Assembly: GCF_002234675.1 (NCBI RefSeq)
Contig: NC_019862.2
Coordinates: forward strand, 31,338,134-31,402,133
Direction: 5' to 3'
Origin: Oryzias latipes
Lineage: Eukaryota; Chordata; Actinopteri; Beloniformes; Adrianichthyidae
DNA: 64,000 nucleotides
Shown here: piece by piece, positions 564 through 63,517 of the stretch
Numbering within the stretch: position 1 is the stretch's first letter
Layout: each line of letters starts with the position of its first letter
Translations under genes and position numbers: made by a program
The notes under the pieces: model-generated
Seen by the model: the letters and a program-made list of their open reading frames with translations, nothing else
Told to the model about the DNA's origin: nothing
Databases searched by the model: none

Positions 564-15764
<15,201 letters not shown>

Positions 15765-17386: not shown

Positions 17387-18974
<1,588 letters not shown>

Positions 18975-40732: not shown

Positions 40733-43700
40733 TTACAGCTCATCCTTCACCGCGTCCGGGCTTTCGTCCTCCTCTTCCTCCAGTTCAGGCTCCTCTCCGT
40801 CTTCTTCCTCTTCGTCTTCCTCCTCCTCCTCCTCCTCCTCCTTGTCCTCTTCTTCATCCTCATCTTTCCTCTTCTTATCCTCCTCCTCGCGCTTCTTCCT
40901 CTCCTCTTCGTCTTGGCTTTCCTTCATCTTCCTCTCTGCATCCTGAAGGGAAAAAAAAAAAACATGTTAAAAACAAAAAAAAAACCTGAAAAAACAAAAG
41001 AGGGAATTTTCGGAACGTTGGAGCTCCGATTATGGGATTGGTACTAAGGAGCAGGCAGATCACCGTTATGTTTAGTCAAGTCTCAGAAGGAGTCGTGTCA
41101 AAACAAGGTTAACCGGAGATTCCACTCATCTTAGATGTCATCTTCAGCATATTAAATGAGACGGGTTAATGTGATGTCATCCCAGCAGCAGGCAGTGACC
41201 CTCAGCTGGAAAAACGTCCAACCAAAACAGTCACCTTAGTTTTGCCCCAGGTGTCATTGCCCACTTCCTCTGCCAGGTTGGGATCATTAGTAATCAGGAA
41301 GTTGTCAAAGATGGTACCCGACTTCACCTACAAAAAACAGAAGCCAGAGACAAAAGGTCAAAGCCGGAGCTTTAATGAATCAGGTGAAGCTGTGGAGTCG
41401 CCGACGGCCGACGTTTACCTGCCACAGGTCGAGCCCGATCACGCCGATGCTGTCGTATTTGTAGATCTCTGGGTCGGCCGTGTACTCGGGGTTGTCGATC
41501 TCAGGATGGATCCACTTGCCCTTGTAGGCGGGGTTATCGATCTCTCTGGCATTCCAGTCGCCCTGGGACAGCAAACCGGCACAGGGAAAACTTTTAAAGC
41601 GGACTGAATTTAAAGTGTTAATCAAATTAGAGATTCAAATTTTAATCTGGAAAAATAAACTCTGTTTAATTCAGGACAGGAAAAGCAAACAAAAATTGGT
41701 GATTAGTCCAAAGTATAAAGGAGCCTTGATTCCCTTTTTCCAAATAAACTGCCCTTCAGATGAAACCTGACCTTCGATGACGCTGCATACCTTATAATCC
41801 GGGTTAGCAATCATGGGCGGCTCCCATTCTCCGTCCATCTCATCGTCCCAGTCTTCGGGCTTTTTGGCATCCGGATCAGGGATGTTCTCAGGTTTGTCCC
41901 AATCCTAAAGACCACAGATTAGAGCAGACACAATGCTTTGTAAATACCGTAAAGTAACACGGCAAACAAAGGGATTTGGGAAAAGCCGAGGTACCTCTGG
42001 TTTCTTATCGTCTGGATCAGGAATCTTCTCCCGGTCATCCCAGTCCTCTGGCTTCTTGGCGTCGGGGTCTTTAATCTTCTTGGGTGGAAGGAAGTCCCAG
42101 TCTTCCTCCAGGTTTCCAGACTCCACCTTCTTGTTGTCGATTTTCACCTCGTAAGTGTTGTCGGGGTTAACGACGAGTGTGTACAAATGCGTGAACTCGT
42201 CATCCTGCAGAGAAGACGGTTGGTGTTTGAAACGGAGCGCAAAGGCCGAGTTGAGATCAAAACCTGTCAGCTAGTCTCAGGGTCTCACCTTGCACCTGAT
42301 GTCCTTGTTAATCAGATGGTTTTTGCCCTTGTAGTTGAAGATAACGTGCACTTTCTTTGTACCCGGGCCACAAATATCAGGACCTAAATGAAGAAGAAAC
42401 AAACCCATCAAGAGAAACATGAGCATTTCAGTGGGGGAGCAAAGGATGAACCCTCTCCTTGTTTTCTTTCCTGAGGAACAGCTCCCGGGTACATTTGACC
42501 CGGAGCACATTTAGTTATGCAAAAGAGTGATGAAATAAAAAAAGTCCTCCTAAAAAACATTCTTTAAATCCAATCATGAACTTCTTTAGCAACCATTTCA
42601 GTAACTTTAAGGCCCACAGATCATGAATCAATGGGGATAACCAAGCAGCCAGATGTGTGTGTGTGCACGTGCACACACACACATCTGGCTGCACGTGCAC
42701 ACACACACACACACACATCTGGCTGCACGTGCACACACACATCTGGCTGCACATGCACATACACACACACACATCTGGCTGCACGTGCACACACACACAC
42801 ATCTGGCTGCACGTGCACACACATCTGGCTGCATGTGCATGTGAGACAGAGGTGTTTTGAGTCTCATAACTGTAAAAAAGCAATTAGCGACTTTCACGCG
42901 ACTCTTTAGGTTCTACTTTGAGCGTCGGGTCAAATTGACCCAAGCAGTAGCTTTGTAATGAAAGAACATTTAGGGGGTTTCCAAATATATTAACTTCACC
43001 ATTTTCCTCTACATGTCGATTTCACTAAACAAGTCAAGCAGAAGTTTCAAAGGGAAAAGTATATATTTTTATATTTTGGACGGCAGTTTAGCTCAGGCGG
43101 CAGAGCAGGTCGTCCAACCACCGAAGGGTTGGCAGTTCGATCCCCACTATCTCCAGCCAGCTGTCGCCCACCGAGCGCGACTAGTCTGCAGCTAAAGAAA
43201 AAAAAAGTTTTTGATGGGTTAATTTGACCCAAAAAGTAGCTTTGTACTATAATGATGGAGGGTGGGTTTAATAATGTTTTAAATAAAGTATTTTCATTTT
43301 ATTTGTTGAATAGGCCAAGCAGAAGAAGTTTCAAAGTGGAAAGTATTTCTTTTTAAGTTTAAAGCGGGTCAAATTGACCCGATCAGTAGCTTTGTACTAT
43401 ATTGATAATAGATTGAATTTATTTCATCTGTCCAATAAGCCCAGCAGGAGACGTTTCAAAGTGGAAAGTATTTCTTTTTAGATTTCTAAATGATAAAAGC
43501 GGGTCAATCTGACCCAGAACACAAGAGGGTGGAGTACATTTTCAAATTACCAAACATGATGTTGTACACAGAGTCTCCGTGCATGTCCTCCTGGTTGAGT
43601 TCAGAGGGGAACAGTTTGATGTATCCTCCTCCACAGTCGATGCTCTGCTCGTGTTTCACGGTGAACTGGATGACCAGCGGCTGACCCTTGTTGCTGAAGT

Positions 43701-46303: not shown

Positions 46304-49300
46304 TCACGGCAGGAAGAAGTTGATCCTCTGTGGGATGGACTTGCATCCTTGGGCTGAGAACAGTCTCTCTTCTTTGGGGACATAAAGCATGGCTTTGGCC
46401 ACCTCATCCAGCGTTGCTTCATCGGCGTCGATGCCTCTGGCCGCGTAGGCGTCCCGAGCGCAGAGCTTGACGTGGCGGTACTCCAGAGGCAGGAACGGCA
46501 CAAAGAAATCAATCAGGTGTCCGGACATCAGCTCGCTCTGAGCAAACCCACCTGGAGGACAACACCAAACAGACGTACAGCAACACAGTAATGGGGATTG
46601 GTCAATGTTTTCAGTGATGGCAACAACAAAAAGACTTCAAAAACACGATTCTGAAGCTCCTAAAAGAGAAAACAAACCCGAAGAAAACACAGACATCTTC
46701 CAACTAAACCTGCTGCAAACCTTGAGAGTCCATCGTTTCCGCCCGCAGGCGATGCTCCAGGTCTTCCATACCGATGTCCTCCCGGTTCTGACCCGAGTGC
46801 CAAAAGTCCAGCGCGACATCATTGATGGCTGCTCCGCCGATGTTACTGTGGAAACAGCAAAAAGGCGTCTCCACAAATATCTTTGAAGAGAGTTAGCGGG
46901 AAAAGAGGCTCATCGGTTTTGTTGAATGGGGGGGGGGGGGGGGGTGCTCATTCAGGTTCGTTGAGACGATGAAGCTGCATCTTCTGACTGGAGACTCGGT
47001 GAGTCACAGCCCCCCCCCCCCAGCCTCTGCTGAACGAACCGTTGAGCCGTTTCACCTGAGGAAGAGGAAGATGGCTCTGCGGTAGGTGACTCCATCCACG
47101 TTGTCATAGTGATCCATGTAGGGCTTGATGGCATCGATGAAGCCAGGATGAAGCTTTTCCGCCTCGTCAAAGATGAAGAGCGTCTGCGGGCAGCGCAGCA
47201 CCATGTCCCGGATGGCCTCTCTAAGCTGGCCCTGGATGCAAACAGAGGAGCACATTTACAGAGTTTGAGGTGAACAGAACCAGAAGGAGCTGCATTTCCA
47301 AAAGAAAATGCAGGGTTGGATGCTACATAGCTGAAGGAATTATTAATTATTATTTCTCTAATTTATTTATTTATTGGATACAGAGACACATTCCTGTCAA
47401 CATGCCAGAGTTACCCAAAGGGCTATTTTACATCTGCAGTCCCTGTAGATGTTAAAATCACCCTAAAATTATCTATTTACATAACATTACGTTCATATAT
47501 TAAATACATTCAGTAACCTAAAGGTAAATTCACGATAAAACAATCCAAAATCAGACAAATGTATGAACATATACACACATAGAAGAGGAGGTTTACTCAG
47601 TGTTACCAAAGATAAAGTGAAAACAGCACAATAAGAACAAAGATATTTTTGTGAAAAATGCGAGAGAGAGAAAGAGAAACGCTTTATAGCATATTCCACC
47701 AATTAGATTTGCAGTAAAGGCGAAAAATAAAAATGGGATTGGATGAAGGATACAGCCTCCATCCAATCTAAAAGGCACTAAATTAAACACTTTTTAGAGA
47801 AGTAATCAGATCTTTTTGTTTAAATATTTCATCAGACTAAACCTTATCAAACCATCACTAAATAAATTCCACGTTTGCAGACGGTGGCAGTTTAAAGGTT
47901 ATTGGGAGTCTGTGGCGTTTTTGAAGTCTGGACAAATGCCACATTCCACAAATCCATGTCCAGGTAAACATGTGACTAAGCAGGTGAGGAGAACAAGTCC
48001 ACCTCGGTCCTGGCGCTGAGCCGTGGAGGCGGGGCCAAGCGGGCTTCCAGCATCTCACCTTGTACGTGTCCACCAGTCGGGCGTGGGGGAAGTGGAACGG
48101 GGCGATGAACAAACGCACGCACTCGCTCTTCACGCCGTCCCGGTACAGGTTCTCAGCAATGATCCGGGCCACGAAGTTCTTGCCGGTGCCGGACCAGCCG
48201 TGGAAGGAGAGCGTGAGGGGTTTGTTGGATTCTGGGTGGTTGACAAATCCCTGGATGGCTTTGAGGACCACGGATTGGACGAGGTGCTGCCCGTGGAGTT
48301 TGGTGTGGAGGTCCTTTGCCAGACCTGAGCGTGGACAAACAAATGAAACCACGCAGTGACATGCCTGAACGGAACAGATGCATTTATCTGAAACACATGA
48401 AGCAACGCGCCCTGCAGCAGACTGGCACCCCGCCTTCATCCAGCAGTGGCTGGGATAGGCTCCAGCAACCCCATGACCCCGAAAGGGGTTCAGAAGATGG
48501 GTGGATGGAGCAATGTCATGTAATTTAATATATATTCAGTGTGATCTGTGACTTGTTTAGTACACATAGCCGTTTGGAATTATCTGGAATAAATTGGATG
48601 ATAATCTGGAATTAAAAGGATTATTTTTTAATTGATGGTTTTTGCATTTTGTGTTGTATTTCATGACAACAGTAGAGAACTGGTACTTTACAAAAAAGCT
48701 AAATGAAACTACATAAAGCAGTGCTTCTCAATTATTTTTTGCCAGGCCCCCCCTAGGAAAAGAAAATGTTTCGCGCCCCCCCTGACCCCCCCCCCCATAA
48801 CCCCCCCCCCCACACACACACACACACACAGACACACTCGCGCGGTGACAATACATCAGGTCAGTATCTATAAAATTTGTATACCTAAAATTGTATCTTT
48901 TAACACTAACAAAAGAAAAAAGCAAAATAAATCCACTTTCAACAAATATTAACTTTATTTAGCCACAGAAACCCTGTTCTAGTCTAAAACAGAAAAGAAG
49001 CTGAAAGTACCTGAAATAAAAAAAATCTGTCATTCCTTATTTAAACTAGAAACATTTTGACCAACTGAACCATTTGATGCTGAAAAAAATAATTCAATCA
49101 ATAAATAATATTAAATCTAAATTGATCTGAAACATTAACACAGCAGCACCAATATATTTAACGTTTTTAGTCTGAAGAAATAGGTAAAAACGTGCTGATT
49201 TTTTTTTTCTAAATGACGGATTGTTTATTTCTGATCTCATAAAAGTGCAGCTGTTTTCCTGCATTACCTGCTGTCTTTATGTCTGTCTGACACCAACTAA

Positions 49301-50967
49301 ACCACAGGCAGACAAAGAAAACATGGATGGAAAATAAAGACACGTCATCAAAATGTCTACAATAGTTCATAAAGAATGACATTGTTAGCATGAGCTTAGG
49401 AATCTAAGGGCAGCGGTGATCTTGGGCAACAGGCAGCGGTAGCAGTGGTCCGCGTGCCCCGATTCCCCTGGCAGACAGGGCCCACACCACCCCTCCCCTT
49501 TCGTTCTCACTCGCGCAGCCGCGGACAGACAGAACAGACAATAGGAACCGAATAGTGGACCAGATTATTTTCCAAGCACTGAGCCGCTGTCACCGCTGCC
49601 CCCACGTTAAATTTGCGCACCGGACAAACCTGTGCCTAAAACCGCCACCACCGCGCGCCCCCCCTGGCATCGCTTCGTGCCCCCCCCTGGGGGCGCGCCC
49701 CACTATTTGAGAAGCACTGACATAAAGTGACATAAATGAAGCTTTACATGAACCTGCCATTACATGTTTATCTTAATAAGATTATATCTGAAACAAGCAG
49801 TAAATATTAAGATAAATTACTTCACAATATCTTGTACTTTTTTATTGTTTCCATACACCAAACCACTGAAATAAAGTGCTCATGTTTGCTGTATTGCTGA
49901 AATTGTAAAGGTTCTTAATCAGCCAGCTTTTCTACATATTTGGAATAAATAGTTAAAATCTAAAGATGATTCAAATGGTGACAAATGCGATAGGCTAAAT
50001 CAAATCAAATCAAAATTTATCTCTATAGCACTTTTACAACTCAGGCCACTCAAAGTGCTTGACAGAAAAACAATCAAATTTAAAAACAAAAGGACAAGAC
50101 AAACAAATATTTAGTTTAAAACCCGCACAATGCCCCCCTCCCCCCACACATAAACACACATACACACACACACACCATGATGAAAAAAGTGATAAAATGA
50201 TGCAATGTAGAAACTGGGCTTTATACCGAAGTGGGGAAACGATGTTTTGGGGACATGTCCACATCAGTGACCCCCCCCACCTCACTTAAGTTCACTGAGT
50301 ACACTACCACAGGACCCCCCCCCCCCCCCCCCCCCCGGGTCTAAAGTAAGGGCCAGACCTGGGAGATCCCACTGCAGTGACCCCGTTCACTGAGAAGGGT
50401 CAGTCACTGATGTGGAGGATCCCTCTGAAGAAAACACTGGAGCTCTAAAACGTCAAAGGAAGAACATTTAAATAACCAAATAAGTACATAAATAAACCTA
50501 AGAGATCAAATGATGTGAATACATAAAATAATATTAAATATCAAAGCTAGATTAAAATCATAAGATAAATATGAAGGCCCCAGAGCATAAAACACGGATG
50601 AAGCGTTCAAACCAAAGCTACCTGTGATGTTGTTGGTGACCCTGCAGTCTCCAGACTCGCAGCACTGACCCAGACTGCAGTACCACCGCTGGAGGAGGCT
50701 GACGGAGTCCTGCGAGAGGCCGGCCCACAGGTCCCTGCTGGGAACTGGTCACAGGCGGACCGTCAGCGGCGGAACCGGGACCGTTTCGTGTCTTCATGCC
50801 TTACCTTGCAGCGAGGCATCGTCCTGGTGTGGCTGGCAGTCCCCCTCCCAGATGTTACAGTAGATGTAGTTGAAGTAGTAGGCGGAGACGTTGCTGATGC
50901 TGTCCAGCTGCAGGAAGTGGGCCTCTGCGGACAGCGCGCAGATCAGCGCCAGCACCCGCCACAGCAT
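46304..50967 (-). CDS. tor3a: Torsin-3A, complete
   Basis: Six exons in transcript order: 50805-50967, 50622-50744, 48059-48324, 47056-47231, 46721-46845 and 46304-46551; 1101 bp, 366 aa. A signal peptide ([16 protein letters not shown]) leads into the ER lumen. The Cys-rich WYCSLGQCC...[11 protein letters not shown] segment is specific to TOR3A among torsins. The AAA+ domain follows. Walker A is GWSGTGKN (the torsin-type Asn), Walker B is [13 protein letters not shown], and sensor/C-terminal parts are [19 protein letters not shown] with the redox-linked GCK. It ends in NFFLP. Two N-glycosylation sequons (NVS, NIT) are present. Torsins are ER ATPases that need LAP1/LULL1-type cofactors; TOR3A is interferon-induced in mammals. 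The gas5 snoRNA gene lies immediately upstream on the same strand. Confidence 0.93.
47285..47780. repeat. Dispersed repeat, copy B
   Basis: The first 50 bp (GCATTTCCAAAAGAAAATGC then AGGGTTGGATGCTACATAGC) and the later AAAACAGCACAATAAGAACA stretch match the repeat at 31445-31950. It is in tor3a intron 3. Confidence 0.5.
48430..48520. repeat. LINE-tail-like dispersed repeat
   Basis: Contains GGCTGGGATAGGCTCCAGC, CCCCATGACCCCGAAAGGGG and GATGGGTGGATGGA, the usual 3' end block of a very common fish retroelement. It is in tor3a intron 2. Confidence 0.6.
48719..49719. mobile_element. Non-autonomous hAT element with perfect 8-bp target duplication
   Basis: A 1001-bp element is flanked by ACATAAAG on both sides (48711-48718 and 49720-49727). 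Inverted ends are CAGTGCTTCTCAA...TTGAGAAGCACTG, extending into a GGGGCGCGCCCC-rich stretch. There is no transposase frame. The intact duplication suggests a recent insertion in tor3a intron 2. Confidence 0.93.
50000..50300. repeat. Dispersed repeat with CA tract
   Basis: Begins (AAATC)n then AAAATTTATCTCTATAGCAC and CAAAGTGCTTGACAGAAAAAC, a common fish interspersed motif, followed by a short (CA)n. It is in tor3a intron 2. The poly-C run at about 50317-50336 follows. Confidence 0.45.
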
Positions 50968-51102
50968 CGGGGAACGGGGCGGTCCGCGGCGGCGGGGACG
51001 ACACGGGGCAACCGCTGCGGGGCTCCGGCCTCACATTTATGGGGCCGCTTCATTCACCGACGGCCTGCTCGGCGAGTGGGCGTCTGTCTCCGCCCCCCGA
51101 GG

Positions 51103-51110: not shown

Positions 51111-51477
51111 GATGTGCCGCGTGATTTCCTCATCCGATGAGGCTGGCCCCGCCCACCAACTTCCGGTTGCAGTGAAGCTAAAGCTAGGCTATCATAAGAG
51201 GTTTACCAGCGGTTTGACATCTTTAAACTTGAACGGGGCATATTAGCCGCAGTAATTTCCAATAAACGTACAGAAAATTAACAGTTGCTTAAAATCGAGC
51301 TACATCTTTAAGCCATGTTAACGTCTCACTTCTTAAGAAAACTAGCTGTCATGGGAGATTATAATATCTATAAACCTCATGGTGACCAATTTACATCATC
51401 CATTCACCAACATAAGACCGGAAGTTTATTCTGAATGAAACCAAACACAAAGTTTTCTTATACAAAGTTTATTAACG

Positions 51478-51483
51478 TTTTAT
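51478..51483 (-). terminator. gas5: gas5 polyadenylation signal
   Basis: AATAAA on the minus strand (GTTAATAAACTT), about 190 bp past the last snoRNA. A second copy is at about 51425. Confidence 0.45.
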
Positions 51484-51674
51484 CCACCAGAAGAATAAAC
51501 AGGAGAAAAAAAAAAAGACAGAATTGTGGAGTTTCCATAATGTTTAAGGCGTTCACAGCAGCAGATGGATGTCGGCCCGGTTCTCCAGACCCGCTCAGGT
51601 TCAGCACCGTCTGTGGAGCAGAGTCTTTGTCACTTCAGAAACTACAACCATAAAAAACAGACGTTCCAACACCT

Positions 51675-51752
51675 CAACCTCAGACAAAAATGGAACGGTA
51701 AAGGGTTATAATCAGCAGCAGTCATTTGGCAGAATCGTTTCATCATCGGTTG
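51675..51752 (-). ncRNA. snord47: Box C/D snoRNA, SNORD47-like
   Basis: Minus strand: terminal stem CAACC/GGTTG, C box ATGATGA, D box CTGA. GATTCTGCCAAATGA and CCGTTCCATTTT correspond to human U47 as I recall it. It guides 2'-O-methylation of 28S rRNA. Confidence 0.88.
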
Positions 51753-51913
51753 AAACCTTTATTGACAATATTTTGATGGAAAACTTACAGGTTGGTAAAC
51801 TTTATTGTGCCCATACGGACGCCTTCGTTTCCAGAGGGGGTGAATCCTGGAAGGAGAAGCAGCAGCATTAAGTCAGAACGTGCTGAGCAGCATCTCAGAC
51901 ACTGACGCACACC

Positions 51914-51983
51914 GACCAGGTCAGCTAGAGCTAATATGAGCCTTCATGACAGAATCCGTCTCAACTTTGTCATCACACAGGTC
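51914..51983 (-). ncRNA. snord44: Box C/D snoRNA, SNORD44-like
   Basis: C box GTGATGA and D box CTGA. The guide TATTAGCTCTAG directly before the D box is complementary to the 18S rRNA stretch CTAGAGCTAATA, as in U44 (18S A166). The CATGAAGG word of human U44 is also present. GACC/GGTC form a short terminal stem. Confidence 0.87.
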
Positions 51984-52206
51984 AGCTGTACAACAGCAGC
52001 TAAAAGCTGCAGCTTTAACACATCAGATGAGACTAGAACAGATCTAGAGGATAAACAGCACCTCTGCATAATCCAGGAGTTCCTACTTACTATAATCGAT
52101 GTTCTGAACAGGACGTTTCAACGATCTTTTGGATCTGCTAAAGAGAAAAATCAACCGTCAATTTATAACCAAACCAGTGATGGTTCTTTAGAAATGAAAA
52201 CTCATC

Positions 52207-52272
52207 CAGATCAGAGAATTCTGTTCATATCCTCAACTGGATCAGAGACCTGATTCACACTCATCCTGTCTG
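52207..52272 (-). ncRNA. Doubtful box C/D snoRNA
   Basis: Position between the SNORD44 and SNORD80 copies, a CAGA/TCTG stem and a D box CTGA suggest a snoRNA. The C box is degenerate (GGATGAG instead of TGATGA), and I cannot match it to a known GAS5 snoRNA. SNORD78 is expected near here, but the sequence does not resemble what I remember of it. Confidence 0.3.
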
Positions 52273-52415
52273 AAATGACGTCACTGCTGAGCGACCCCAT
52301 CGCAGCTCTTACCTGGAGAGCCGCCAGACGAGTCTCCTTCCTGCCTGGAATGACACGAAGCAGGCGTTAATAAAAAAAAAGGATAAAGCGTTGAAGACGG
52401 AGACGAAAACTTAAA

Positions 52416-52497
52416 CTGACACGTCAGCTAGGAGCGAAAGACAAGTTGTGTTCTTCACGGTGTAATCTGCTGAACTATGCTGTCATCACTGTGTCAG
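52416..52497 (-). ncRNA. snord80: Box C/D snoRNA, SNORD80-like copy 1
   Basis: Terminal stem CTGACAC/GTGTCAG, C box GTGATGA, D box CTGA. CATAGTTCAGCAGA and GTCTTTCGCTCCTA before the D box match human U80. The latter pairs with the GGGGGCGAAAGACTAATC region of 28S rRNA. Confidence 0.9.
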
Positions 52498-52626
52498 ACA
52501 CAATAAAACCTATAAATTCATTCAGACTCACCTCTACGTGGGCTTCATGAGATTCTGAAATAAAATAAAAAAAATATAAATTTTACAAAATGCAAGATGC
52601 ATTAAGATGGCGTCAGTTTTGAGGTG

Positions 52627-52702
52627 GATGCATCAGTTAGGAGCGAAAGACATGATTGTTCTTCATTGCTTATCTGCTGAACTATGCACTCATCACTGCA
52701 TC
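52627..52702 (-). ncRNA. snord80: Box C/D snoRNA, SNORD80-like copy 2
   Basis: Terminal stem GATGCA/TGCATC, C box GTGATGA, D box CTGA. It has the same CATAGTTCAGCAGA and GTCTTTCGCTCCTAACTGA as copy 1 but a different middle part. It may be a duplicate of SNORD80 or occupy the place of SNORD77, which shares the first motif. Confidence 0.85.
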
Positions 52703-52852
52703 TGAACAAGTCCAAGTTCTGCGAGTCAAGGAAGACCTCACCTGCAGAACCGGAACCAGGTGTGTGCTGGGGTGGAGCCTCACTGCCACCTGCGACAGAA
52801 ATCATCCCGTTACAGCGCAGACAGAAATCCAGACACATGCTATTCAGTTTGC

Positions 52853-52930
52853 ACTGCATCAGAACAAAAGTCCTCTTCACTTTTCTCAGAGAGATTCCCA
52901 TTGTTTCACAACAAAATCATCATCAACAGT
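52853..52930 (-). ncRNA. Box C/D snoRNA, possibly SNORD79
   Basis: C box GATGATGA, an internal D' box CTGA after CAATGGGAATCTCT, and a D box TTCTGA with an ACTG/CAGT stem. The D' guide is nearly complementary to the 28S rRNA stretch GAGATTCCCACTGT. The name is a guess from position. Confidence 0.65.
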
Positions 52931-53075
52931 TGAGTCAACGTTCAAACGCTTTATAATCTGCTTATTACCTTTTTAGTCATTGGAGCCGCTTCAATGAGGC
53001 CTAAACACAAGAGGGAGATGCATTTATAAATACAAAGAAGCGTCCAAGTGCACAGTAGAGATCTGTAATGATTGG

Positions 53076-53154
53076 TGCCTCAGAAATGTTAACATGGTGG
53101 TGTTATTATCGTCATCCATCTAGTCGAGAGTAGCAAATAATTGTCATCACGGCA
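53076..53154 (-). ncRNA. snord76: Box C/D snoRNA, SNORD76-like
   Basis: Terminal stem TGCC/GGCA, C box GTGATGA, D box CTGA. TTATTTGCTACTCT and the AACACCACCAT...TTAACATTTCTGAGGCA end correspond to human U76. Confidence 0.88.
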
Positions 53155-53407
53155 TCATCTCCACAACAGATTTATGCTTCTCTGAAGTGTCACCGTAATT
53201 CAGGAGGTTAACATTCAGCGCAAAGCCTGATGGGAAACCCTTCAAAGAAGCAAAAGCTCAAATCTAATCACAGATGGAGCAAAGCTACACTTTACCTTTG
53301 AAAAGGTTAACCAGGCGTCTGTATTCTTCTTATAAATCTGTGGATGCAGATAATTCTATTAGTTTGATGCAGTTCCATTTATGGCAAAGGAGCTTATTTG
53401 AAGGTTA

Positions 53408-53481
53408 GAAGCATCAGTGTATATAGTTTGTCAGAAATCACTCCTGTCCACTACTCTTACACATTAATCATCACTGACTTC
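53408..53481 (-). ncRNA. snord75: Box C/D snoRNA, SNORD75-like
   Basis: C box GTGATGA, D' box TTTCTGA, D box CTGA, stem GAAG/CTTC. The guide AAGAGTAGTGGACAGGAG then GATTTCTGA matches human U75 nearly exactly. Confidence 0.9.
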
Positions 53482-53794
53482 TCCACGTGTGAGAGACAGA
53501 AACCCTACATGGAGGACAGACCATACATACCTGCACATGGATGGACAGGGCCGCAGCAAGGCCTGCATTCTGGTCCTAAGGCGAAACACACCCAGCAGTT
53601 TAACATTTCACAAGTTCCAACTTTAAAGTTCTTATTCTTTTTTTTTAGAAAAAGAAAAGAAAAAAAACTAACTTACCAGCCACAACCAGGGGTTTCCATC
53701 ATTTCCAGCTTCAACAGTACCCTATAATTTACAAGATTAAAGTTAGCATGCATCCCGCTCAAACGTGCACAAATAGTGGGGTTTAGTCTTTCAT

Positions 53795-53871
53795 CCCATG
53801 TCAGAAATGTTGGCGTTACTTCACAATGACTCAGATGTCCCTACCAACACTTATTCATCATAAAACACGGG
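53795..53871 (-). ncRNA. snord74: Box C/D snoRNA, SNORD74-like
   Basis: C box ATGATGA, D box CTGA, terminal stem CCCGTG/CATGGG. GTGTTGGTAGGGACATCTGA and CGCCAAC match human U74. It is the first snoRNA of the host transcript, as in human. Confidence 0.9.
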
Positions 53872-54154
53872 ATAGAAAACCGTTAAGGTGGGAATAAATT
53901 AGCGGGTTAGCTAGCAAGTTAGTTAGCTATTCCACGTGCTTAAGGCCTGTCTCTGTAAACTCCGGCAAAACATGACAAAAGTTCACAATTTGGCTCATTA
54001 TGGAAATAAGAAACACTAATTTAGAAGCATCTAGAAAAACTTAAAGGCAAAAAAAAAATAGGGGGTGAGAAAAAAAAACAGACAAACTATACACACCTTA
54101 TCACCACATGAAGCGAGGCGAAGAATGAGAGAGAGCAAACGCTGCTGGACTTTC

Positions 54155-54161
54155 TTATATA
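54155..54161 (-). promoter_or_regulatory. gas5: gas5 TATA-like box
   Basis: GTATATAAGAAAG on the minus strand lies about 25 bp upstream of the CTCTCTCTC start. A TATA-like box followed by a terminal oligopyrimidine start is the usual TOP-promoter arrangement of snoRNA host genes. Confidence 0.6.
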
Positions 54162-55282
54162 CGCTGTCGCAAAGGCTGATGGGAAAAAAGTAGATCCTGG
54201 AATTCCGCCCCTGCCGGTCAACTGATGAATGACAACTGACAAAATTTGATCAAAAAAAAACAAGCCTGACTTTTAAACCAGCTGTTTTAAACAAGTACAA
54301 CAATAATAAATTATTTTATTTTCTTAAAAAAATTGAACTTTAATGATCAATATAACTTTTGTAAGTTAAAGAATAAAAGTTGGGGCACATCTATTTTTTC
54401 TTCATTACTTAAGACAAAGTACGTTTTAATAAGGCAATCTCAACGTGACATTCCTCTCCTTAAATGCAACATTATTTTACATGAAGAATTTGAAGGCCTT
54501 CAACTAACATTGTTATTCCTGTGAACAAATATACAGTTCATCCAGTTTGTCTTTGTGAATTACCTTCAATTCTCCCCCAAAAACCAAATGTTGCAGTTTA
54601 TTTTCTTGTGGTTTTTACTCCTTTGTAGTTTCTGACAGCGACAGGAATGCTGCAGTGAATATGGCGTTAGTTTTTATTTACTACTTGTACCATGTTAACC
54701 GTATATTCCCAACAGGATTCCACTTTAACAGGAAAATGTTTCCAACTAGAAAATCATTCAGGATTTCTGAAAGAGGACAAACAAACAGGAAACTCAAAAC
54801 CATCTGAAAGAAGGACTGAATCTTGCTGAAATCAACTCATAGAGATTTAATATTATTAATCATTAAACAGGAGAGTTGATACAATCAAGGCTTATAACCA
54901 GAAGGAAATTTAAAAAATACATTTGTTTGGATTGCTCTCTATTAGGCAATACTGAGAAGAATGGCAAGGCCTCTATTCAAATAGTAACGTAAAGACAGAA
55001 CATGAATGGAAAAAAACCTGACAGCTTAGATTTTTGTGAGAACTTATCTCAGTTGGCTCATTTCTGAAGGCATTTTTATTTGTTTATTGAACTAAACTCA
55101 CTTTGCTGCGATCACTGCATCCAATACACGTTTAGAAGCCCCTTCACCTGATTCAATCACACCTCTTTTCATAAAGGCCAATTAAACGACGTTCAAACTG
55201 TAAACAGAAACACCAGGAGCGATCACTTTGTACTCATATTCAGGTGAGCTGCTTTCTCCATTTTTATTTCTCCATAGTTCAC
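54162..55282. other. Intergenic region between gas5 and osbpl9
   Basis: AT-rich DNA with no recognisable gene, RNA or element. Confidence 0.5.
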
Positions 55283-56482: not shown

Positions 56483-59400
56483 TCAGGGCCTCTGACTGGG
56501 GAGTCTCTTTAGGAGGGGCTCATCGTAGACCCAGCACTCCCCGTCTTCATGGAACAGCTACCAAAAGACAGAAATCACGATCACTCATCATCAAATCTAG
56601 TTTCATTTTTGTTAGCGTCTTATGCCTGAGTCACAACTGCCCTCATGGGGGAATATGGGCTGCCAGCGGGTGGAAAATAGGTAAAAGTGTTTAACAGACA
56701 GGGGGACCTGCGTGTCCCAAAGTGAAGGAAATCTGACAAGTGTGTAGTTTGTGCGGACATCCTACGGGCACGTGCGTGTTACGTGCACATCCCATGTCTG
56801 TGCATTTGCGTGGGGTCAGTCAAGGGCCAACTTACTGAGGACTAGTGTGTGGCATTAGAACACCAAACGAATGTGCATTTAGCTCCCATTATCCTCACAT
56901 TTACATTTACCACACGCATGACAATGGGACAGTGTGCCTCTGGGAAATGAAGGGACAACTCAGAAACCTGCAACACCCGACAGGTCAACGCTCGGGCGAG
57001 GGCACGTGACTCAGGCATCAGTAACCTGTGGTCTGACAGTTTCAAAGATCCACTCCCATCATCTGTGGATCATTTTCAAAGCTGCCAGCTGTCTTTAAAT
57101 GATAAATATGCCGCTTTTATTTAGTCAAAATCTAAAAACCCAGGTTGTTTTCTAGGACACAGTTTCTGGAGAGCAGCAGCAGCTCATTAGAGTTGAAATG
57201 AGCAACCCCGACCCCCCTTCCCTTCTTCCGGTGTCTGTCCCAGAAAAGCTGTTCCTGCTCCTGATTCACAACAATTTGAATAAAGACATACTCCGAAATG
57301 CCATTTTGAGCTTCATTTTCTCCATACATGTTCTTCATCATCAGAAAAATGTTTTCATCAATGTTTCTGTTCTCCAGCGGGGAGAAAAGCTCACCCTGGT
57401 CTCCCACTGCTGCTCCTTCTCCTTCCTCTCTCTGGCTTCAGCTCTTTGTTTCTCCTCCAGTCTGTGTTTGGCGTCTGTCGCTGCATCGATGTCCTTCAGC
57501 TTCAGGTTCACCGTCACGTCTCTCCACAGTCTGTGGACACAGAGAAACCCAAATCCAGCGAGTTTCATCTTTTTGATGTAACCGTTTGTAACCGTTTGTC
57601 CGCTCACCTCCGGGATTCAAAGTCCAGCTGGTCCTCCAGCTTCCTTACTTTCTTCTTAACGGTCCCGATCTTCTTTGTGTCTATGAATGCCGTGTTTTCC
57701 TGCGCTCACAAGCATCATTTGTGAGTTAAATGATGAGATGGAGGGATTTTCAGGAAGAAAGGAAGGACTCATTTCAGTAAATAGGATTAAACTTCCCACA
57801 TAACAGTCATTTACTTGGGCTAAATGAATCAAAAACATAAAGGTAAGACGGGGATCTTCACTCACTCCAGTGGCCCATTTGGCGTACATCACTCCATTCC
57901 ATTCTCCCTCAATGGAGCAGAAAGACTTCTTGTCGTTTGGAGCACTGCAAAAGATGCAGCCAAACACGTTTGACATTTTATCACAGCACGAGCTTGACCC
58001 TGGGCGAGCGGACGGACGCGTTGGCCTTACAATATGTCAGCGGTGATCCTGTGCTTCTTCCCACCATAGAAGGGTTTGGTGTGGAAGACGATGTTGGCGC
58101 TGTAGCCCGACTTGGAGCAGGAGATGTTGCACTCCCCGCCCAGCTCCACCCACGGCACCGTGAGGATGGACCTGGACAGACGGACAGACTGGGGTCAGAG
58201 AGGCAGACCCAGCACGCCGGCGAGCGACGGCGTGTTTTAGCCCATCAGCTACCTGCCGTATCCGTTAGGGAAGGTGAGGATGTAATGTTCATCGTGCTCC
58301 AAACAGGACACGCAACCTGCAGAACAGCAGCAAACATTCAGGACACCTGAGCAGCAGCCAAACGACACAGACTCGTCCGATTCAAGTACCTTGACCAATG
58401 TTGTGGACTCCAATCGACATGCCAAGAAACTTAGACTTGGTCCAGATGTGAGCGTTGAACTGGATCTTCCTGTTTAAACACTCTGCGTAGAATGCAGAAA
58501 CTGCAGAGAAAAGGAGAATAAACAGATGTAAACACCATTTGATGTGGCAGAGGACCCATCCATCATATTTAGGAAATCCTCTGCAGTGTTGGTGATGCTG
58601 TCCTGCTCTTTTTCCAGAGAACCGGCCCCTGTAGCTTCTACCAGGTGAAACTCACCTGATGCAGGTAATCAGGGCTGGAGCTGTGGATCATTGATCCGGT
58701 TCACCAACGGAACACACATGAGCCCACCATTCTTACTATTCAATATATCATCTTTGAAGAGTTGCTATTTGTGTGAAAATGTATTTAATCCCCATCATTT
58801 ATATGTTTATGTAGAACAGCGAATCGTAATCGACAAACAGATAAATACACAAAGATTTGGAGAGAAAGAAATGATATTTATCATTTGAAACAATGTCACT
58901 AAAAGCTTTTTCTGTCAACTTCTTCAACATTTAACAGCAAATCCTGAAGATGTTTTTCCATCCTCCAAGTCTAGATGACCACAGTTTCAGTGGATCAAGA
59001 AGATGAACGACGACACACAAACACTCGCAGTCTTTTCCATCTAAACTGACAACAGACACGTTTAATAAACCAACTTTTTTTAACTCTAGTGGAAATACCA
59101 AAAAAAAAGGTACCTTTTTTTGCTGCTTCTGTCGCATGACGTCACATAAACGATCACAACATCTTTGTAGTATTCGTCATTTCATATTAACTGTTTTGTT
59201 TAAATTAAACTATCGACAATGTGTTTAGAATTGATGTCAATAAACTGAACTTTAGTCTCATTTTTTGGTCATTTATTAAAAACAATTGATAGTTTTACTC
59301 CAGTGACAGATGCGGTTTAATCCGTTTGTATTTCAAAAATCCAGCATTTTTTTGCAATTTTAGAACAATGACTACATGACCTGAAGTGTATTTTTTACTT

Positions 59401-61315
59401 TTCTATATTTATAAAGAATCTGGAGTGTCAGAAATAATCAGTCAGACTTTGAGGAACCGATAGCAAACGCGGCGGCTTTGGCATTCAGGTGTGAAGACAG
59501 ACAGGTGGAATACTCACTGGGGGGGTGGTGAGACACCTGTTCAGCCACAAAACACACACTGTTGGTGGAAGCCCAGGGAACTGGGCCGTCTGATACGGTC
59601 TCCTGAGGGAGGACGAGAAACAGAAAAGCTTTCCCATCAGAAGTTCTGCACGTCTGCCTCAGAGGCGTCTGCCTCAGAGGCGTCTGCGCTCCTCACCGTG
59701 TGCTGAGCGGGCTCCTCTGCCCCACTGGGCAGATCCCAGTGGCAGTAGAAGACTTCCCCCAGAATGGGGTTGTAGGGCTTCTTGGCCACTGAGCCTTTCC
59801 GGCCGGCGTGGAACGCCGAAAGGTACCATTTGACCACCTGAACCATCCGCTCTCTGGGCTCTGGCTGCTCGGCGATGCTTCAGAGGAATCAGAATGTTAG
59901 CATCATGTTACCTGCAGGAGGGAGGGGCTTAAAACAGGCAGGTAAATGCCATACATACCTTACAAACAAGTCCGGATGTGCAAAGAAGTCTGCGTACATT
60001 TCTAGCAGAGATCTCCTCTCGAGGATGAAGGTGGGCAGGACCACCTGAAAACCAAGAGTCGGAACGGCTCAGGAGGAGAGAAACTCCGGAGGAAGAGCGA
60101 TGGAGAGGCTGCTCACCTTTGTGAGGTCCATGCCCAGACGAACTTGTGAGAGCAGATGCATGATGACGCTCTTGTGCTCTTCCACAGACTCGCCCTCCCC
60201 GTCGTCATCGCGGTCATCATGGCTGTCAAACTGATCTGGGAGGAGAGCAGACGTCTGACAGTTCCTCATGTGGAAGACGCAGTCTGATCATCTTCTGATG
60301 TAAAAGCATTCCCTGGAAGGTTTGAGCCAAAACCCTGGAGCCATTTCTAGGACTTAGTCTCTGCAGAGCGGCAGGAGTTCATCAGAAACCACCCGGAGGT
60401 TTCTCTACGTCGGTAGTCTGGGTTTCCAGGCCGCGGACCGGTTTAACGTCGGACCGTATTTCCCCGGACCGGTCCGAACGGAGCAGCAGTTTCCGTTTCA
60501 TATTTTTACATTCATCATGTTTGTTTTTACATAAATCCTGATTTATTGTGTATTTTTTCAACACAGGAACATTTTCTGAGCTCAAGTTTCTCAACAAAAG
60601 TCTGCCTAATTCAGCTTTGCTGTAGGAAAATTCATAAATGTCCTTTTCACAAGTTTCCACAAATCAGCATCATTTGTTTATTAAATCTTCATTTGGTTCA
60701 AACTTTAGTCTTTGTGATGAAGATTTTCCCTTTTACGTTAAATTGGATGCTAACTTTAGCCGTGTCCAGCTTTTAATAATGGATAAATAAAGCAAAAGAT
60801 CTGGGGCCTCATTTATAAAACTTTGCGTAGGATTTGCGTCAGAAGTGGCGTACGGATGAAACATAGGACGTGCGTACGCACAGAAATATTCGGAGTTATA
60901 AAACCGTGCGCACGCACATCCTACGCATCTTTCCCTAAATAAATCACAACCGATTCTAAATGCTGCGCAGCTTTAGCGGCTTCATGACACGCCCATAGTT
61001 GCCCATAAATAGTCCGTGAAACGCCCACAAATTAATATTCATTGATTGCGAAACCATGCCAAACACGGAGAGAAAATCAAAAAAACGTAACTTCACTCAA
61101 TGTGAAGTAGAAGTCATCGTTGGCGAGGTGGAAAAGAGGAGAATAATGTTGCTTGGAGGGCACAGTGTGGGCATTACTAATGCCAAAAAGGCACGTGAGC
61201 GGCAAACGGTGGCAGACGCCGTAAATGCTGTAGCCTCACAACCTTGGACCGTGGCCGAAATAAAAAAGAAATGGTCGGACATCAAAGTCAAGGCAAAAAA
61301 ACGTCTAGCGCTGAA

Positions 61316-61346
<31 letters not shown>

Positions 61347-63517
61347 CCGTGTCTGCCACGGGTGTGGGGGGGGGACGACACCGGAGCTGACACCTCCTGA
61401 TGAGAGACTGGCGACAATAATTTGGGAATCCCTTTTATTAAGTGGAGTGGTGACTTAGGCGCAGGGGGACACCGACGCGCCAGATACACCGGGTGACCCC
61501 CCCCCAAAAGCCCGCAGAGGAAGTCGGAACCGGCTCATAAGCCACTCGTCCTCGTTGTGCGTCATTACGCATTGTGATGGAGCATTTTATTTCCATCTAT
61601 TTGATTGCATCTGACAAGCAACCGATGTCGGGAATAATCGACGTGGAAATGGGAAATTGTTCAGCGCAAATGTAATTTCTTGTTGCTTTCTGAATGGTCG
61701 AGACATTCGTTGTTTTATCAAAAATAAAACAAACTAAAGGCATATGCATGAATACCATAATTCCGTACCTTATGAAGAAATGTTTTACTATGAAAACAAC
61801 TTTCCCTAGTGGACAATTAATGCATCTCTCTCTATCTATCCATCTATCTGTCTGCTCCTATATCTGCTCCGCCAGACGGACACACTGACGGGAATATCAG
61901 TTTTGTACATTATTTCGTTCTGTTAACTATATTACTTATGAGGATGAATTACACAACATGCCAATATTGCAGAACATATTTCACTTTTCTTTTTGCAAAT
62001 AAGTGTTCATTTGAATTTCTGTTGTAATTTTCGTTTGATTTTTTTTTGTTTGTTTCCCTGCTGATCGATCAAACGGGTGTTCGTGTAGGCTGTTGATTGT
62101 AAGACTTGCTTTGTGAAGTCTTCATGTTATTTCTGAGAGGCAGTATTGTCATTTTCACTTTCACGTGTTTCTTCCATCTGCCGACGGTGTCGCCATTTCT
62201 CATTTCATCCGTTTTTGTGCGTACGCCTGGGTCAGAGCGTGAAGGACCGCACATTTTCCCGTCAAGTTTGCTTTTTATAAATCTCAACTATTGCGTAGAG
62301 AGTGGCGTACGCCTTCTTTTGTGCGTACGCAATGTTTATAAATGAGGCCCCTGGTATTTTCTAAATCTAATAATAAACGTGTGTCACTCGCTGCTTTTCT
62401 ATAAATGCAAAGCAGCTTGTGGTCCGTGAACGACTGTCTGAATTCTTCTGTATTTGGAGGAAAACTCCTGGATTGTCTGTAAACAGCAGCTTCATGTTTC
62501 TTTTCTGCCTCTTTTCTCCCCAAACCAACTTTCCAGATTCGCTTTTGTTTGTTTTTCATTTGCATTTTAGCGTCGCTCTTTTAACTTTGCAGTCCGATCA
62601 GCCGCTTAAAGTCATGTGACGCGTCGAGACACGGATGTGGTGAACAGAATCCGGAAGTTTTTCAAAATAAAACTTTCTTCTGTATCAGAAAATAAACAAA
62701 AGGGAATAATCTAATCAAAGTTTAGTGTTTGCTTTTATTTCCTCTTCCGGTGGCCCGGTACAATTTGACCCACGGACTGCCCGGGGGAGGGGGGCCACTG
62801 CTCTACGTCTTTTTAAACGGCATTTTTTCATCTGCTCCTGATTCACATCCATTTCAGTAAAGTAGTACTCAGACATGTAATTTTAAGCTTCATTTTCTTT
62901 CTAGATGTCCTAAATCATGAGAAAAATGCCACAAGAACCTGATAAAAACACCATTTTTATCAGATTGGGTCTCTGAGTAGGAATGACAGGAAGTAAAGTG
63001 AGCTGAAACGACCGTCTCTGAATCTTTCTAGATTCTAGCCGACGACACACAACCAGGTGAACGGCGCGCGGGTCACCTGCAGGGTTCTTACCTGCGTCGG
63101 TGGTGCCATTGGACATCGATGAGTTCAGGGACTCGGTTGTGTTGGGCCGTTTCAACGTTGATTCTTGGCTAGCACCAGGCGAGGCTCCAGGAGGCTTGGA
63201 GGGACTGAAAGAGAGAACGATTTCCCCGTGAAGGAGCTCATTTCTTTGCGGTCTGAACAGAATTGCCCTCCAGAGGAGCGCAGCTGAAACGTATTATTGT
63301 AGGACGTCCCCCGCTGGCTCTGCGGGGGGCAGGAGGTGGGGCAGATGGCGGACTCACTCTCTGCAGTGTTTGGGTGAAGTGGTGCTCTGGTAAAACTCGT
63401 CGGCATCGTAAAACTCGTCCTCGCTGGAGGAGTAGGAGAAGTCTGGCACGGACCGGGAGGGCAGAGGGATGTGAGCCGGGGAGGCAACGCCGCTGCTGGT
63501 GCCGGACGGCCCGCTCC
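56483..63517 (-). CDS. osbpl9: Oxysterol-binding protein-related protein 9 (3' part, 13 exons)
   Basis: Exons in transcript order: 63358-63517, 63092-63204, 60117-60235, 59959-60044, 59697-59877, 59518-59602, 58390-58500, 58253-58316, 58031-58171, 57866-57944, 57608-57699, 57395-57530 and 56483-56557. They give 479 aa plus stop, all in phase. A FFAT-type motif (EFYDADE) for VAP on the ER precedes a Ser-rich linker with [12 protein letters not shown]. The complete lipid-transfer (ORD) domain follows, with [28 protein letters not shown], the family signature EQVSHHPP, and [19 protein letters not shown] at the end. ORP9 exchanges PI4P and sterol/PS at ER-trans-Golgi contacts. The N-terminal PH domain and start lie off the right edge. 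These blocks match human OSBPL9 closely, better than ORP10/11. The last four residues before the stop (SQRP) differ from mammals. Confidence 0.95.
57235..57370. repeat. Dispersed repeat, family copy 4
   Basis: CTGCTCCTGATTCACA, GAGCTTCATTTTCT and TGTTCTTCATCATCAGAAAA align with 62825-62945 and 34650-34745. It is in an osbpl9 intron and ends about 25 bp before the donor of exon 57395-57530. Confidence 0.6.
59640..59690. repeat. Short direct repeat next to an osbpl9 splice donor
   Basis: CTGCCTCAGAGGCGT occurs twice in tandem, with a third partial copy, immediately inside the intron after the exon ending at 59697. Confidence 0.7.
60804..62350. mobile_element. Harbinger/PIF-type element, Myb-like gene only
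   Basis: Terminal inverted repeats are GGGCCTCATTTATAAA and TTTATAAATGAGGCCC, with a 3-bp duplication CTG (60801-60803 and 62351-62353). Subterminal GCGTACG words occur at both ends (GTGGCGTACGGATG; GTGGCGTACGCC). Such ends are typical of fish Harbinger elements. It carries a Myb/SANT-like frame near the left end but no DDE transposase, so it would depend on another copy. It is nested in the hAT element. Confidence 0.88.
61056..61400 (+). CDS. Myb/SANT-like DNA-binding protein of the Harbinger element
   Basis: A 114-codon frame starts [20 protein letters not shown] and continues with [38 protein letters not shown] and [11 protein letters not shown]. This is the N-terminal Myb/SANT-like (trihelix) domain that Harbinger elements encode beside their transposase, where it helps nuclear import and DNA binding. 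After about residue 85 the frame enters a poly-C run (Pro repeat) and a (CA)n, and probably ends out of frame there, so the protein is truncated. Confidence 0.7.
62820..62975. repeat. Dispersed repeat, family copy 5
   Basis: CTGCTCCTGATTCACATCC, AAGCTTCATTTTCT and TAAATCATGAGAAAAATGCC align with the copies at 57235 and 34650 and, inverted, with about 75-200. Confidence 0.6.

Follow-up and report, generated by a model that had tools for sequence, protein, structure and literature searches.

A snoRNA host locus in the medaka genome is very probably the teleost gas5 gene

A 64,000-nucleotide stretch of the medaka (Oryzias latipes) genome (contig NC_019862.2, positions 31,338,134 to 31,402,133; hereafter the window, in whose own numbering all positions are given) carries on its minus strand, at 51462..54135, a locus that we identify as gas5, a non-coding host gene of small nucleolar RNAs (snoRNAs), which lie in its introns and serve as guides in ribosome maturation. 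We put the probability that it is the teleost orthologue at about 0.97, because its snoRNAs, its intron anatomy and its neighbours, taken together, point to gas5. The original prediction, made from the letters of this stretch, had named a fish gas5 locus here, and these lines of evidence bear it out. Since teleost gas5 has been described before, the locus is an already known gene, ordinary apart from small differences in guide content. What is left over beyond known gas5 is a candidate element in intron 8, a SNORD44 placed downstream, and SNORD78 and SNORD81, which were not recognised among the genome candidates scored.

Comparison of the window with Rfam returned six snoRNAs over the cut-off, all on the minus strand from 53872 to 51676: SNORD74 (intron 1, 53794..53872; RF00284, 48.7 bits, cut-off 41), SNORD75 (intron 3, 53410..53479; RF00612, 54.5 bits, cut-off 50), SNORD79 (intron 5, 52852..52931; RF00152, 65.6 bits, cut-off 47), two U80-type copies (RF00309, cut-off 41; copy a, intron 6, 52625..52704, 63.5 bits; copy b, intron 7, 52416..52497, 58.1 bits) and SNORD47 (intron 10, 51676..51751; RF00281, 78.7 bits, cut-off 50). 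These matches share one strand, lie within 2.2 kb and are all of types known from gas5. Over the rest of the window, on both strands, no Rfam family reached its cut-off, so the clustering is not a matter of chance. Two further minus-strand members join the gas5 set at scores below the cut-off: a SNORD24/76-type snoRNA in intron 4 (53076..53154; RF00069, 40.8 bits, cut-off 41), which we name SNORD76, a SNORD24 paralogue, and SNORD44 in intron 9 (51919..51981; RF00287, 30.7 bits, cut-off 40). Counted by gas5 type (74, 75, 76, 79, 80, 44 and 47), five of seven exceed the Rfam cut-off and types 76 and 44 fall under it. Every one of the eight known snoRNAs has a C box with 0 mismatches, a CTGA D box and a possible terminal stem of 4–8 pairs, in agreement with the boxes and stems originally predicted for seven of them. 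Those seven (74, 75, 76, 80, 80, 44 and 47) are all present on the minus strand in the predicted interval, and in the Rfam check that had been proposed for them five are above the gathering cut-off, with SNORD76 and SNORD44 below. The list was incomplete, however, in that SNORD79 and the intron 8 candidate had been overlooked.

Genome-wide searches covered the whole assembly (734 Mb, 25 contigs), with about 60 first-look candidates scored for each family, so that absence from the results is not proof of absence from the genome. For SNORD74 a single match was listed (E up to 0.001; 61 of 65805 first-look candidates scored) and for the U80 family two (E up to 0.01; 61 of 122247), all of them in the window. 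No genome match listed for these two families lies outside it, and neither family gave a match in any of 14 control genomes.

The predicted host transcript (51462..54135, minus strand) comprises 11 exons delimited by GT...AG sites that were chosen by eye and located by script. Exon lengths would be 39, 45, 45, 42, 32, 48, 23, 32, 47, 58 and about 149 nt, and the ten predicted introns measure 101–375 nt each. A motif test located a C/D element in nine of the ten introns, intron 2 being empty; it tolerated one C-box mismatch at most and required a CTGA D box together with a terminal stem of 4 or more pairs, G-U included. In these nine introns, in order, the end of the D box precedes the predicted 3′ splice site by 79, 76, 79, 69, 78, 79, 73, 74 and 69 nt; introns 5 and 6 offer alternative D boxes as well (54 and 58 nt). 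Single C/D elements, one to an intron, at a near-constant D box distance (69–79 nt, measured to splice sites picked by eye) are the anatomy of a gas5 gene.

Both promoter motifs of the original prediction, a TATA-like box and a pyrimidine-rich start, are present. The TATA box, TATATAAG (54154..54161, minus strand), begins 26 nt upstream of the putative start at 54135, where the pyrimidine-rich sequence CTCTCTCTCATTCTTC resembles a 5′ terminal oligopyrimidine (5′TOP) motif. The sequence at this putative 5′TOP start is CTCTCTCTCATTC, and the spacing from TATATAAG is as expected for TATA plus 5′TOP. A poly(A) signal, AATAAA, lies at 51468..51473 on the minus strand, and the 3′ end of the model is an estimate just beyond it (about 51460). 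In the predicted spliced RNA of ~560 nt the longest ATG open reading frame (ORF; those of at least 12 aa were considered) spans 33 aa, so the transcript would have no sizeable ORF, which fits the earlier expectation that the exons encode no conserved protein. The start, the exons and the mature snoRNA ends of medaka gas5 are predictions from the DNA letters. No inverted repeats were found at the promoter. A 19-nt stretch, TTTCCCATCAG[C/G]CTTTGCG (minus strand), occurs twice with 18 of 19 positions identical, once a short way upstream of the TATA box (54168-54186) and once in intron 4, upstream of SNORD76 (53219-53237).

The flanking genes provide the third line of evidence. Downstream lies a torsin-family gene (46304..51049, minus strand; start at 51049 set by eye), in which two of five segments tested matched Pfam (Torsin, E 1.1e-39; TOR1A_C, E 1.3e-19) and a third matched Torsin-1A in the PDB (E 4.3e-18). 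Upstream lies a gene of the oxysterol-binding-protein (OSBP) family (57341..60068, minus strand), with Pfam Oxysterol_BP in four of seven segments tested, two of them above the curated cut-off. The family level (torsin, OSBP) comes from these domain matches and the names tor3a and osbpl9 from position. In published work, tor3a and osbpl9 flank gas5 in zebrafish, tetraodon and fugu, unlike in mammals (PMC5024134), and a table of zebrafish neighbours places the same pair beside gas5 (PMC6347452). The torsin–gas5–OSBP order of medaka matches this fish microsynteny.

Compared with the gas5 genes described in the literature cited here, the medaka locus is closest in setting to that of other teleosts, which has the same flanks and is likewise a non-coding host with intronic snoRNAs (PMC5024134, PMC6347452). 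Exons of gas5 are reported to be conserved between tetraodon and zebrafish (PMC5024134), initiation of zebrafish gas5 has been profiled by cap analysis of gene expression (PMC6954239), and zebrafish mutants lacking gas5 expression are described as viable and fertile; osbpl9 in them was up by half and ptena was elevated (PMC6347452). The chicken gas5-like host gene (mRNA CR387333) has a TATATAA box, a 5′TOP start and short exons, which the putative promoter motifs and predicted exons of medaka resemble, and it shares with medaka a guide set of two U80 copies, no U77, and U74, U75, U76, U79, U44 and U47 (PMC2653536); it has U78 and U81 besides, which were not recognised among the candidates scored in medaka. 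Intronic C/D snoRNAs and SNORD74 in intron 1 are common to medaka and human GAS5, and the non-coding 5′TOP transcript of the human gene has its counterpart in the RNA predicted for medaka (PMC10743478, PMC6954239), the human gene being credited with ten C/D snoRNAs, 77, 78 and 81 among them (PMC10743478). In order, medaka resembles the chicken and human descriptions in that SNORD74, 75 and 76 come first and SNORD47 late. It differs from chicken in the middle: there the U80 copies occupy introns 4 and 5 and U44 intron 7, before U78 and U79 (PMC2653536), whereas in medaka U79 comes first, followed by both U80 copies (introns 6 and 7), the intron 8 candidate and SNORD44. The reported mammalian flanks, zbtb37 and dars2 (PMC5024134), also contrast with torsin and OSBP in medaka.

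Several observations weigh against the gas5 identification. SNORD76 and SNORD44 score under their cut-offs (40.8 against 41 and 30.7 against 40), SNORD44 leading unrelated genome matches by only 2.1 bits; the U80 copies and SNORD44 are placed otherwise in the order than in the chicken description; and SNORD78 and SNORD81, reported from human and chicken gas5, were not over cut-off among the genome candidates scored. We do not treat SNORD78 and SNORD81 as defining gas5, since vertebrates reportedly differ in how many snoRNAs there are and in their order (PMC2653536).

The sub-threshold scores of SNORD44 and SNORD76 and the imperfect C box of the intron 8 element are also what a decayed copy of gas5, its snoRNAs no longer made, would display, and teleosts underwent an extra genome duplication, as the abstract of PMC7145513 also has it, so that a second gas5 copy was possible. 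A decayed or duplicate copy is nevertheless very improbable: for SNORD74, SNORD44, the U80 type and the intron 8 stretch, the genome matches listed include nothing better than the copies in the window, and the boxes and stems of all eight known snoRNAs are intact. A different, non-gas5 host gene that had gathered the same snoRNAs by transposition would fit with flanks other than the mammalian pair and with an order unlike that of chicken, yet the same flanks are reported around gas5 in three other fishes, gas5 exons are reported to be conserved between two of them, and SNORD74, 75 and 76 lead and SNORD47 follows late, as in chicken and human. We give this explanation almost no credence, and read the locus as the teleost orthologue of gas5.

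The name SNORD76 follows from a comparison across the genome. Three matches to the SNORD24 model were listed: two strong ones on another contig, C12 (71.9 and 70.3 bits), followed by the window copy. With E up to 1, 7 of 14 control genomes also gave sub-cut-off matches to this model. The two stronger SNORD24 copies lie ~370 bp apart among exons of ribosomal protein L7a; Pfam Ribosomal_L7Ae was found there in one of two segments tested (33.2 bits, cut-off 22.1), while NCBIfam eL8 matched two of the three segments compared with it, at scores short of the whole-protein cut-off. We rejected the reading of 53154-53076 as SNORD24 itself, since the stronger copies sit with the L7a exons; that they lie elsewhere and that the window element follows SNORD75 is why we call it SNORD76, which is listed beside U24 as a functional homologue in the chicken study (PMC2653536).

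For SNORD44, three genome matches were listed at E up to 1, scoring 30.7 (window), 28.6 and 27.3 bits, all sub-cut-off (66 of 451175 candidates scored), and at that E limit 7 of 14 control genomes likewise had sub-cut-off matches to the family. Because the lead is narrow, the assignment leans largely on position in the cluster and on the guide. The other chicken gas5 snoRNAs are said to keep the human order (PMC2653536), and SNORD44 would therefore also lie further downstream in medaka than in human.

The paired U80 copies were examined in a pairwise comparison of the nine elements (36 pairs, threshold z 4 against simple shuffles), in which two pairs exceeded the threshold, copy a with copy b (z 18), indicating that they are paralogues, and copy b with SNORD44 (z 5.8). 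Both copies retain both guides, GCATAGTTCAGCAGAT and GTCTTTCGCTCCTA. For this reason we take both to be of U80 type, no genome-wide SNORD77 search having been made, and reject a SNORD77 plus SNORD80 pair: in the table of PMC2653536, SNORD77 has only the A-1469 guide of the U77/U80 pair, without the G-1560 guide of U80, although the prose of that paper words the loss otherwise. The same source reports two U80 copies in chicken gas5 where human has U77, names U80 as the probable origin of U77, and describes gas5 as a hotspot of vertebrate snoRNA change, with tandem duplication and transposition in zebrafish and Xenopus too (data not shown there). Shared boxes may account for the alignment of U80 copy b (52416-52497) with SNORD44 (51919-51981). 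A 28-nt stretch with 79% identity links the 3′ end of SNORD79 (52840-52867) to the 5′ end of U80 copy a (52682-52709), possibly by chance.

Assignment of the snoRNAs through the ends of published human quantitative PCR primers was tried and set aside as uninformative, the boxes dominating the score. Among seven primer pairs the counterpart ranked first for U44 and U79 only and tied for U74; for U75 and U76 another element scored slightly higher, and for U77 and U78 the margins were small.

Intron 8 holds a plausible candidate box C/D element at about 52208..52271 (minus strand), recognised by its boxes and stem motif and belonging to no Rfam family. Its C box has one mismatch, its D box is CTGA and precedes the predicted 3′ splice site by 73 nt, and a 6-pair terminal stem (G-U allowed) can form. 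Of 4000 175-mers drawn at random from elsewhere in the window, 11 showed the same motif with the D box 60–80 nt from the end, as did 27 of 2000 shuffled versions of the intron, under criteria set after the element had come to light. Against Rfam its best match was SNORD52 (19.3 bits, cut-off 45), and SNORD78 and SNORD81 were not listed at E up to 10. The element was thus rejected as SNORD52, whose score is far under cut-off, and as SNORD78 or SNORD81, which gave no match there within that E limit. Nor does it look like a copy of a neighbouring snoRNA, no pair with the other eight exceeding z 4, and a DNA search of the genome with the intron 8 stretch returned only itself.

With E up to 1, the genome-wide search listed ten weak SNORD78 matches, the best at 21.5 bits against a cut-off of 38 and none at the gas5 locus, and SNORD81 had no match among the candidates scored; searches for these two families gave sub-cut-off matches in 7 of 14 and 3 of 14 control genomes. 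We tentatively entertain, as a rather doubtful proposal, that intron 8 encodes a real, expressed C/D snoRNA outside Rfam, either new to the lineage or a remade SNORD78, and that the genome has lost both SNORD78 and SNORD81. If true, this would be a further instance of snoRNAs being gained and lost at gas5.

The mechanism of the locus is likely the same as that of other snoRNA host genes. RNA polymerase II would start at the TATA-driven, 5′TOP-like site near 54135, and the precursor would be spliced to the short non-coding RNA described above. The eight known box C/D snoRNAs, perhaps with a ninth, would be trimmed from the excised introns, and each would enter a C/D small nucleolar ribonucleoprotein (snoRNP) directing 2′-O-methylation of ribosomal RNA (rRNA). 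Predicted targets lie in 28S rRNA for 74, 75, 76, 79, 80a, 80b and 47 and in 18S rRNA for 44; for the chicken counterparts, PMC2653536 gives a table of the guided sites. Transcription, splicing, snoRNP assembly and rRNA targets are what we infer from the named families and the cited papers. Viral contigs were scanned for the end of a eukaryotic rRNA, and none turned up.

The locus offers a clean annotation of a gene invisible to protein-based gene finders. It adds one data point on changes of the gas5 snoRNA set among vertebrates (paired U80, downstream SNORD44, unrecognised SNORD78 and SNORD81, and one unassigned element) and opens no new question beyond those changes.

Elsewhere in the window, an exon of a calreticulin-family gene lies at 41905-42270 on the minus strand. 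A minisatellite at 8661-9695 consists of ~26 copies of a 41-bp unit with 94% matches, and a long open plus-strand frame runs over part of it. Tc1/Sleeping Beauty-type transposase domains (Pfam HTH_Tnp_Tc3_2 and HTH_SB) occur at 17752-18297, and a plus-strand ORF at 61020-61400 encodes a Myb/SANT-like DNA-binding domain (Myb_DNA-bind_5), perhaps part of a Harbinger-type element.
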